From NCBI RefSeq assembly GCF_011762045.1, contig NZ_JAASQS010000007.1, forward strand, positions 124,001 to 188,000: a DNA stretch of 64,000 nucleotides, read 5' to 3'. This document shows, in pieces, positions 49,487 to 55,195 of the stretch. Position 1 is the stretch's first letter, and each line of letters starts with the position of its first letter. The notes under the pieces were generated by a model, which searched no databases, was not told where the DNA came from, and worked only from the letters and a program-made list of their open reading frames with translations. The DNA is from Rhizomicrobium electricum. GTDB lineage: Bacteria; Pseudomonadota; Alphaproteobacteria; Micropepsales; Micropepsaceae. The translations under genes were made by a program, and so were the position numbers.

Positions 49487-49519
49487 AAAAGGGGCCGGAT
49501 TTCTCCGGCCCCTTTTTTT
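49487..49519. terminator. Strong intrinsic terminator
   Basis: AAAAGGGGCCGGA (49487-49499), a 4-base loop and TCCGGCCCCTTTT (49504-49516) continuing into TTT. The stem with A- and T-runs on both sides should work in both directions, ending the phosphorylase transcript and the RMF-like gene on the other strand. Confidence 0.9.
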
Positions 49520-49537
49520 CATGTCGTCAGCGGTGTG

Positions 49538-50065
49538 CTACCAGCGCGCCGCCATTTCGGCGATCGCCCGCGAGGCGATATGGCCGCGGAATCCCTTGAT
49601 CCAGCGTTCGTACTCGGTAGTGCCTTCGTCGTATGGGCAACCGTTCTGCTTGCCGAAGCGGATGGCGAGAATGGCCGACTTGTAGCCTTCGACGAAGGGG
49701 CGGCGGCCTTCGGCCACCGGAATGCTGATCGGTTTCTTGGCCACGGCCGCGACCGGACCGCGGAAACCCTTCCACCAGCGTTCGTATTCCGGCGTGCCTT
49801 CCTCGTAGGGGCAAACGGTATTGCGGCCGAACCGGGTGGCAAGGATCGCCGACCGATAGCCTTCCACGAACGGACGTCGGCCCTCGGCCGAGGTCGAGAA
49901 GGGGCATCCCGCTTTCTTCGTTGCCAGCTTGGCAACCGGCTTGCCGCCGAAGCCGCGGCACCAGCGCTCGTGATCGCCCGAACCCTCGACATAAGGGCAC
50001 GGCTCTATCTTGCCGGTGATGGTGGCGATGTAGCCTTCGAGGAACGGATTGTTGTCGGGCATCAT
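49538..50065 (-). CDS. Protein with three tandem RMF/CrpP-like modules
   Basis: A 175-residue protein made of three repeats: residues about 6-41, 64-103 and 122-161. Each has the pattern (N/R)PF(L/V)EGY, 12-16 residues, CPY with an acidic turn, then E-R-W-x-x-GF. CPY occurs at 23-25, 85-87 and 143-145. This GY...CPY...W..G(W/F)R order is that of ribosome modulation factor (55 residues, one module) and of the CrpP family. Repeats 2 and 3 are near-identical; repeat 1 is diverged, with an extra Cys. If the fold holds, it could bind ribosomes or nucleic acid in stationary phase; this is inference. Start ATG 50065 or 50062. Confidence 0.75.
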   Translation of the reverse strand: MMPDNNPFLEGYIATITGKIEPCPYVEGSGDHERWCRGFGGKPVAKLATKKAGCPFSTSAEGRRPFVEGYRSAILATRFGRNTVCPYEEGTPEYERWWKGFRGPVAAVAKKPISIPVAEGRRPFVEGYKSAILAIRFGKQNGCPYDEGTTEYERWIKGFRGHIASRAIAEMAARW

Positions 50066-50292
50066 GATGGTCGGGCTCGCGTATGACTGCGTTTTGATTT
50101 TTCCGATGGACCAAATGCACCGCGAAAACAGGCAGCAATTTGACAGCTTAAGCTTTTGTCGCAGATGAGCGCGGTTTCGCCACAGCGCCTGCGCAATTGA
50201 TGATCCCGTTTGCTTTCGCTGCTCGCTTCAAGCGTGCGGTGGTGCCGAATGTTTGGGCAGCGATCGCGGGAAATTAACGCGGGACGCAAACA

Positions 50293-52927: not shown

Positions 52928-55195
52928 CTACCGATTGCGACGCAGCAGCAGAAACACCACCAATCCGGCGATGATGGAGAGTACCGCCGCGCCGCCGCCG
53001 GCAAACCACCAGCGGTGATGCGATACATAGGTCCGCGCTTCGCGGATCATCAGCTTGCGTTCCATTTGGATGGCCCCCTTGAAATCCGGTGCCGGACATT
53101 TGACGCCGAACGTCGTGGCGAACGGCACCCGTGCACCCTGTTTGACATAGCGCAGCCACAGCGCCTTGGCACGCGCCGGATCGCGGCCCGACCACTCCGT
53201 CGCATGGCATAGCAGGGCCGCAAAGGCCTGGCTCCTTGCCGGCACCAGACCGGCGGCGGTTGCGGCCTCTCCGATAGCGACATAGCGGTAATGGAAGCGC
53301 TGGTCCGGCATGGCCTTGCTGGCGGCAAAGCGGTCCCGTTCGCCTTGCGTGATGAACGGACCGTTCAGCGTGTTGCGGCCGAGGCCGAGTTCGAAATCGC
53401 CCTGCGTGAAGTACTCGTCGGGCGGCCCTTCGGTGCCCATGATCTCCATGCCCGACTGGCGCGCGATGGTCGCCGCTTGGAACAGCGCTTCGGCTTGATC
53501 GACCTTGCCCCACGCATGGTCCGCACGCTTCAAGGCGGCGGCATAGGCCTTGGCGGCTTCGCGCACCTTGTCGGTGGAGAAATAGGCCAGCGCTTCGTCA
53601 TAGCGTTTCTCGCGCATCAGCCGCCGCGCCAGGAGGTCTCGCAGCGTGACCCGGCTGTCGAACGGCGTGCCGTAAGGTGCGGGCTTGCCATCCATCACCG
53701 GCGTCTTTCCGGGCGGCACATGGGCATCGACGAAGGTTTTCAACTCGTCGACCGTCAGCACGCGTTCGGACAGATAGGCGACGTCGGACCAATAGGTGCC
53801 CGACGCCGACCACAGCTTGGCGAGCGCGTCGACATACTCCCCACGCGCCAGCGCCACCACGCCGGATTCGCCGAGTATCAGTTTCCGGCCGTCCTCTTCG
53901 AGGGCGGTCGATGCCGGAAAACCGTGTACCGCCTGGGCATAGAACTTCGCCGCGGCGGCGAGATCGCCTCGCTGGGTAGCGAGTTTGGCTTCGACCCAGG
54001 CTGCCAGCGGGCTCCCCGATTTTCTGGCGAAATCCGCCGCACAGGCCCAGTCGCCGCGGCTGTAGCACAGCGCGGCGATGCGGTCGGCTCCGGCCGGACG
54101 GGTTTGTGTTTTCAACACCGCGATCAGATCGGCGAACACATCCGTCTTGCGCTCGGCCGACAGTTGGTTGTTGAGCTGAATGGTGTTGGGAACGGTATAG
54201 CCGGTGTCGTGGCTGTGATCGTAGGTATTGTTCTCGACCAGCCGCAACGCATACGCCACCATCAGCCGCTGCACTTGCGGTTCGCGCGCCACGGCCGCGA
54301 TGCGGTCGCTGCGGTCGAGCAGGAATTCGGCGACGATGCGCAAGGACTGCATCCCGCTTCCCGAGCCGCGGGCCGCCTGTTCGGCATAAAGCGAAACCGC
54401 TTCGGCGATTTCCTTGCGGAACGGCTCGCTCTGGCGTTCCGGCAGCACGCTGCCGGAGTATTTGTTGGCTTCGGAGTCGATCGACCCTTGGCCGCCCGAG
54501 ACCGTCTTGCCGCCTGCTTCCAGCAGAGCTTCCGCGGCGTAGAGATGCACGCGTGCCTCTTCGCCGTAGCTTGCCACCGCCAGGCCGAGCGGATCGGGCA
54601 CGCCTTTCCGCGCCATGTCGCGTGCCCAATGAAAACCGCTCGCGGTGCCCGGCGCGTCGCGGTTCTCCGCCGCAATCCGTCCGAGCATGTAGGCCGCCCA
54701 TACGGCCCGCGGCTTGCGGAGGTTTTCCGGCAGGCGCAGCACGGTCTCGAACTGGGCCTTGGCGAACGTTTCATCGCCCTTGTGCCAGGCGACCGCGCCC
54801 GCGGTGTAGTGCAGAACGGCGAGCGGCAGGCCTTTGCCCTTCTCCAGCGCCTCGGGTCCGCTCGCGGCCGCGCGCGCCGTGCGCAGGAGGATCACCTCGT
54901 TGGTCGACAGGCCCGCAGTTTCCGCTTCTCCGAGTTCGCGGGCGGCGTTTTCCGCCTGCTGGTCCTTCATTTGCGAAGCCCAGCTGAAATCGAAGCTTTC
55001 GACCGGCTTCAGTTTGTCGGCAGGGGCGGGAGCGAGATGTTTCGCCTCGAAGCCGAAGCTGTTGACCGGCGTCGCCTTCAGGGTCTGGGCGCGTTCGTCG
55101 AGAAGCTGCCAAGGGAAGAATGGTCCGCAGGCGATCGCGGCCGCGCCGCATCCGGCCGCCAGCACCGCTGCCGTCGCGATCTTACGGTTCCACAT
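52928..55195 (-). CDS. Large secreted membrane-anchored helical-repeat protein of unknown function
   Basis: A 755-residue protein. A signal peptide ends near ACGPFFPWQLLDE; the Cys in AAAIACGP could be a weak lipobox. The long central region is all-helical with TPR/Sel1-like features (VLHYTAGAVAWHKGDETFAKAQ, AAAAKFYAQAVHGFP, LMREKRYDEALAYF). A C-terminal membrane helix (AAVLSIIAGLVVFLLL) ends in RRNR. The CGPFFP start is known from uncharacterised proteobacterial proteins encoded beside DUF3142 genes, as here. It overlaps the DUF3142 gene by 14 bp. No catalytic motif was recognised; a scaffold or envelope role is possible. Confidence 0.7.
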   Translation of the reverse strand: MWNRKIATAAVLAAGCGAAAIACGPFFPWQLLDERAQTLKATPVNSFGFEAKHLAPAPADKLKPVESFDFSWASQMKDQQAENAARELGEAETAGLSTNEVILLRTARAAASGPEALEKGKGLPLAVLHYTAGAVAWHKGDETFAKAQFETVLRLPENLRKPRAVWAAYMLGRIAAENRDAPGTASGFHWARDMARKGVPDPLGLAVASYGEEARVHLYAAEALLEAGGKTVSGGQGSIDSEANKYSGSVLPERQSEPFRKEIAEAVSLYAEQAARGSGSGMQSLRIVAEFLLDRSDRIAAVAREPQVQRLMVAYALRLVENNTYDHSHDTGYTVPNTIQLNNQLSAERKTDVFADLIAVLKTQTRPAGADRIAALCYSRGDWACAADFARKSGSPLAAWVEAKLATQRGDLAAAAKFYAQAVHGFPASTALEEDGRKLILGESGVVALARGEYVDALAKLWSASGTYWSDVAYLSERVLTVDELKTFVDAHVPPGKTPVMDGKPAPYGTPFDSRVTLRDLLARRLMREKRYDEALAYFSTDKVREAAKAYAAALKRADHAWGKVDQAEALFQAATIARQSGMEIMGTEGPPDEYFTQGDFELGLGRNTLNGPFITQGERDRFAASKAMPDQRFHYRYVAIGEAATAAGLVPARSQAFAALLCHATEWSGRDPARAKALWLRYVKQGARVPFATTFGVKCPAPDFKGAIQMERKLMIREARTYVSHHRWWFAGGGAAVLSIIAGLVVFLLLRRNR

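Follow-up and report, generated by a model that had tools for sequence, protein, structure and literature searches.

A protein with three modules of Rmf/CrpP type, found in a few members of an alphaproteobacterial genus

Ribosome modulation factor (RMF), at 55 aa, is called tiny in one account (PMC11102965); another records it in some gammaproteobacteria (PMC10901736). Rhizomicrobium electricum, an alphaproteobacterium, encodes a protein of 175 residues in which three modules with the pattern GY...CPY...W..GF follow one another, and the question raised by this locus is whether the modules belong to the RMF family and, if so, whether such a chain might act on ribosomes. The gene lies in the window analysed here, namely a stretch of 64,000 nucleotides (positions 124,001 to 188,000 of contig NZ_JAASQS010000007.1). 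No report of a multi-module RMF or Rmf CrpP family was found in the literature searched (open-licence papers only).

A conserved gene and its surroundings

The triple-module protein is present in four of the 96 genomes of the family, that is R. electricum itself and genomes G051 (85%), G025 (58%) and G064 (56%), each with three modules; all four belong to one genus, in which 65 of the 69 genomes showed no such protein. The open reading frame and its three fused modules are as the preliminary description gave them, and the strand, on which it was silent, is minus (Table 1). The ATG start opens an MM conserved in all four orthologs. The changes between R. electricum and G051 speak against a mirror reading frame on the plus strand (49535..50086): 53 of the 86 lie at third codon positions of the minus-strand frame, and these are first positions in the mirror frame. 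The dN/dS ratio is about 0.17 for the same pair (0.096/0.572) and about 0.11 for G025 and G064 (0.072/0.655); the gene is under purifying selection. Here, I show that it is a real and conserved gene of unusual architecture, in which a known building block is put together in a new way.

Table 1. Features of the triple-module locus, in window coordinates
Feature	Position	Strand	Remarks
Triple Rmf/CrpP-module protein gene	49538..50065	minus	175 aa; ATG at 50065, TAG stop ending at 49538
Module 1 (aa 7-40)	49946..50047	minus	GY, CPY, W..GF; no R11 or R45 equivalent
Linker 1 (aa 41-60)	49886..49945	minus	basic, extra CPF; pLDDT <50 over 41-62
Module 2 (aa 61-103)	49757..49885	minus	R64 ~ RMF R11, R102 ~ R45; 4-residue insert ATRF
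Linker 2 (aa 104-118)	49712..49756	minus	
Module 3 (aa 119-161)	49583..49711	minus	R122 ~ RMF R11, R160 ~ R45; 4-residue insert AIRF
C-terminal helical tail (aa 162-175)	49541..49582	minus	predicted helix 150-174, low confidence
GC-rich hairpin, T runs either side	49488..49515	none	fold -35.5 kcal/mol, z -4.4
Upstream block, stretches conserved in all four loci	50116..50185	minus	CTGTG.C.AAACCGC; CAAATTG.TGCCTGT.TT.GCG

In the four loci the triple-module gene converges with a GH94 gene, itself preceded by a gene for an AGE-type epimerase, and a sodium/solute symporter gene lies on the other side, the intervening content being variable (the neighbours were named by Pfam in the window and by resemblance in the other three loci). 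The epimerase reaches 366 bits with the NCBIfam model of cellobiose 2-epimerase, below its cut-off of 800. Judged from these genes, the neighbourhood is likely a sugar-use cluster. The hairpin beyond the stop codon reads as a putative terminator serving both converging genes; comparable hairpins were seen by eye downstream of all four orthologs, and a consensus scan gave no entry for it. The upstream block is possibly a control region, a candidate put forward on its conservation; it matched no Rfam family at gathering level, and no promoter was found in it by a promoter scan. A tRNA scan returned nothing of use. The window also holds a 755-aa open reading frame (52928-55195, minus) that opens with a signal-like stretch and ACGPFFPW, without a Pfam match at E 0.01 or an NCBIfam match at 1e-5, and a similar one of 740 aa lies near the triple-module gene in locus L133 (11046-13268).

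Family membership and anatomy of the modules

The whole protein exceeds the cut-offs of both Pfam RMF (PF04957; 32 bits vs 27.9) and NCBIfam Rmf_CrpP_fam (NF041886; 31.3 bits vs 28), in line with the RMF/CrpP assignment proposed in the preliminary description, whereas single modules stay below them. In isolation, modules 1 and 2 score 18.6 and 15.0 bits with the Pfam model, which does not match module 3; modules 3 and 2 score 16.0 and 12.8 bits with Rmf_CrpP_fam, and module 1 just 14.0 bits with the RMF equivalog model of NCBIfam. No isolated module attains a cut-off, and the family call thus depends on the modules summed.

A profile built from 11 gammaproteobacterial RMFs gives 26.3 bits for R. 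electricum, 29.4 for G051, 26.1 for G064 and 22.9 for G025, the maximum among 2000 shuffles of the R. electricum protein (1393 of which scored) being 9.0 bits. An alphaproteobacterial-type profile (seven single modules and one RMF) gives 75.4, 73.8, 45.5 and 43.3 bits for R. electricum, G051, G025 and G064, respectively, with a shuffle maximum of 9.9 bits (1344 of 2000 scored). By hhalign, the alignment of the module proteins matches gammaproteobacterial RMF with 91.0% probability (score 31.6, the best of 200 column shuffles being 20.7) and the alphaproteobacterial single-module profile with 97.3%. The match of the modules to RMF-type profiles is beyond chance, and by these comparisons they are closer to the alphaproteobacterial single-module Rmf/CrpP proteins, to which the best match extends across the whole module (NF041886), than to true RMF. 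These single-module proteins include genes so annotated on Methylobacterium plasmids and a protein of phage Milano.

The NCBIfam model that matches the protein spans Rmf and CrpP jointly, which brings in a further candidate function, that of a CrpP-like quinolone-modifying protein; CrpP modifies ciprofloxacin, and its residues G7 and I26 are reported to be essential (PMC7918633). Nonetheless, the triple-module gene has sugar-use neighbours and no resistance context, and crpP-like genes, even those of P. aeruginosa, are according to the same source not consistently linked to resistance (PMC7918633), so that a role of this kind is very improbable.

Aligned to the RMF profile, C29, P30 and W40 of RMF are kept in all three modules and the position of W44 is occupied by F in all three. 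Equivalents of both R11 and R45 are found in modules 2 and 3 only, the corresponding residues of module 1 being N6 and G40. The basic N-terminal R3/K5 has no counterpart in any module, the profile matches starting at positions 11-13. The assignment to the superfamily is upheld by the cut-offs, but not that to RMF in the strict sense: R3 and K5 have no equivalent, the W40/W44 pair is broken by the F at W44, the closest profiles are those of the alphaproteobacterial single-module proteins, and three modules in 175 aa take the place of a single domain of about 55 aa.

The core G..A...G......CPY/NPY.........W..G is found in the three modules of R. electricum and G051, and is partly lost in G025 and G064, namely in module 3, which lacks the CPY and GF motifs, and at the P of CPY in module 2. 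From the arginine pattern and the motif losses in module 3, at most one or two of the modules, not three, look RMF-competent. The same losses, together with the presence of the gene in only four of the 96 family genomes, could be taken as signs of a tandem expansion, confined to this lineage, that has kept little function and is heading to decay; the low dN/dS ratios, the intact frames, and a start and place conserved in all four genomes speak against such a fate, which is unlikely. A fourth weak stretch (residues 51-74, 5.8 bits) joins the CPF of linker 1 to the first helix of module 2; for the Cys is absent from linker 1 of G025 and G064, the module count was set at three.

The charge is unevenly distributed, with a net -2 for module 1 (over aa 1-45), +2 each for modules 2 and 3, and +8 for the whole protein (pI 9.35). 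A gammaproteobacterial RMF of 55 aa has a charge of +7 and a pI of 10.86, and three alphaproteobacterial single-module Rmf/CrpP proteins are acidic (pI 4.05-5.46). Helices were predicted by AF2 at 7-17/30-39, 65-79/92-105 and 123-137/150-174, that is three helix-loop-helix pairs of low confidence (mean pLDDT 55.3 and pTM 0.31 from the four-sequence alignment; pLDDT 42.6 from the single sequence). A PDB sequence search with the whole protein had no RMF among its matches, and the module profile found RMF there at E 1.4 and 1.7 only.

Narrow distribution and age of the repeats

In the sampled genomes of the class, the whole-protein profile matched two of 385 (R. electricum and one single-module protein) and the module profile, at E 0.01, six of 385. 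Across the phylum, 398 genomes were sampled and 115 had a PF04957 match, mostly as single copies, 23 of these 115 being of the same class. By eye, no contig carried two matches less than 1 kb apart in a first sample of 385 genomes, apart from that of R. electricum, or in two further ones of 398 and 385 genomes; these last two scans missed the R. electricum protein too, its single modules scoring too low, so that weak tandems would escape them.

Besides the triple-module gene, no RMF-like locus was found in the R. electricum genome: three other weak PF04957 places there (antisense to rpoB, in DnaJ, and in a frame with a stop) are not RMF-like. At E 0.1 the module profile matched 15 genomes of the family, four of them through the triple-module protein. 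Of the loci in the other 11, nine were taken for inspection, L019 and L025 among them not being properly read out; L017, L018 and L022 presumably resemble phage portal proteins, and the others inspected look noise-like or out of frame. Spread on plasmids or phages was considered and set aside: a phage search with the protein gave no match, two viral-contig scans revealed no relative, a PHROGs search had no informative match, and plasmids gave two weak matches (E 0.8 and 0.09), one in a stretch of a Rhizobium plasmid whose longest open reading frame (447 aa) is not RMF-like, the other on a Streptomyces plasmid, under an NRPS gene.

The high similarity of modules 2 and 3 had been ascribed to a duplication either recent or followed by concerted change. 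The two share 75% identity in protein and 74% in DNA, yet identical codons are found at only 53% of the 32 positions with the same residue, and the dS between them is 1.01 in R. electricum, 0.62 in G051 and 0.64 in G025. Orthologous modules of R. electricum and G051 differ by a dS of 0.48-0.70, lower than that between modules 2 and 3 of R. electricum (1.0), while modules 2 and modules 3 of R. electricum and G025 differ by 1.4 and 1.7, higher than the same value. A recent duplication is contradicted by the dS of about 1.0 and by the codon divergence, from which modules 2 and 3 are best regarded as old. As for concerted change, whole-module trees group the two by lineage (support about 0.7-0.9, from very short alignments) and the 4-residue insert is common to modules 2 and 3 of R. 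electricum and G051 only, a pattern that fits concerted change or a re-duplication before these two genomes split; on the other hand, half-module trees, likewise from very short alignments, are mutually discordant, and the idea stands weakly supported.

Ribosomal and non-ribosomal readings

The protein is a member of the Rmf/CrpP superfamily retained by a few genomes of a single alphaproteobacterial genus. A ribosomal role of RMF type is the leading reading, though held tentatively, and it is nearly matched by a role away from the ribosome. The ribosomal reading draws its plausibility from the absence in the genus of long HPF (PF02482 + PF16321), which is ordinarily the dimerising factor. The dimerising C-terminal domain PF16321 was not found in the R. 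electricum genome; it occurs in 18 of the 96 family genomes, with none among the 69 of its genus (g1), none among the seven of genus g2, and 18 among the 20 of five sister genera (g3-g7), which in g1 indicates a loss, or a marked divergence, throughout the genus. Of the 96, 78 retain PF02482. An RMF-like protein in this genus could supply the former role of long HPF; E. coli RMF is described as acting together with short HPF (PMC11102965).

The sole S30AE (HPF-type) domain found in R. electricum (212140-212445 of contig C9; loci L010 and L134, 7087-7899, minus) is fused behind a baeRF family 12/Host_attach domain in one 270-aa open reading frame, so that a domain resembling a release factor and one of a hibernation factor share a chain. 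An open reading frame of equal length and similar start is present in G051. One source links baeRF families to HPF by gene neighbourhood (PMC6514570).

With gammaproteobacterial RMF the protein shares the GY...G...CPY...W..G..R pattern, the predicted helix-loop-helix and, in modules 2 and 3, the equivalents of R11 and R45. In E. coli RMF, as one study has it, R45 touches the anti-Shine-Dalgarno and is required for dimerisation, R11 is required for binding, and alanine changes at the R3/K5 tail or at W44 weakened or abolished activity (PMC8126665). In the ribosomal reading, each module would be an RMF-like helix-loop-helix; modules 2 and 3 would bind the 30S near the 3' end of 16S rRNA and the anti-Shine-Dalgarno, as RMF does, and ribosomes would be silenced or stored when nutrients, perhaps sugar, are scarce. 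Module 1 and the linkers may add avidity or contact a partner, and the protein, along with short S30AE proteins, could take the role of the lost long HPF. In favour are the cut-offs passed, the shuffle controls, the arginine equivalents, the pI of 9.35, purifying selection, synteny in all four genomes and the PF16321 pattern. Against it stand the lack of the R3/K5 tail, F for W44, the single-module scores, a mean AF2 pLDDT of 55 with no Foldseek match of the model in the PDB at E <= 0.001, and the acidity of the three closest-type single-module relatives, unlike rRNA binders. Furthermore, long HPF can be lost without the triple-module protein, which was found in just four of the 69 genomes of the genus, and genus g2 (seven genomes) lacks both PF16321 and the protein.

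The same acidity, the absence of the RMF-specific N-terminal residues and the closer match to alphaproteobacterial single modules than to RMF (97.3% vs 91.0%; 75.4 vs 26.3 bits) speak for the module as a general small binding fold, in which case the triple chain would bind some other nucleic acid or a protein. This non-ribosomal reading is almost as credible as the ribosomal one; under it, basic modules 2 and 3 with both arginine equivalents would be a coincidence once ribosomal contact was lost.

As in long HPF, one chain could join ribosomes, although the domains are unrelated. Holding several ribosomes, as the preliminary description suggested, may be possible. In its strongest form, modules 2 and 3, linked by about 15 residues, would each dock a 30S, the chain directly joining two ribosomes in place of long HPF, and module 1 might take hold of a third ribosome or tether the chain to another partner; such a covalent staple is improbable, and RMF itself, according to the same E. 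coli study, does not bridge ribosomes (PMC8126665).

To sum up, the protein departs from RMF by its three modules, the missing R3/K5 tail, F for W44, the insert in modules 2 and 3 and a much lower charge density, and from the alphaproteobacterial Rmf/CrpP proteins, which have a single module and, in the three measured, are acidic. The occurrence of a conserved three-module chain in a genus that lacks long HPF offers a natural test of whether linked RMF modules can bind ribosomes with greater avidity or bridge them, and it also bears on the roles of the uncharacterised Rmf/CrpP proteins of Alphaproteobacteria.
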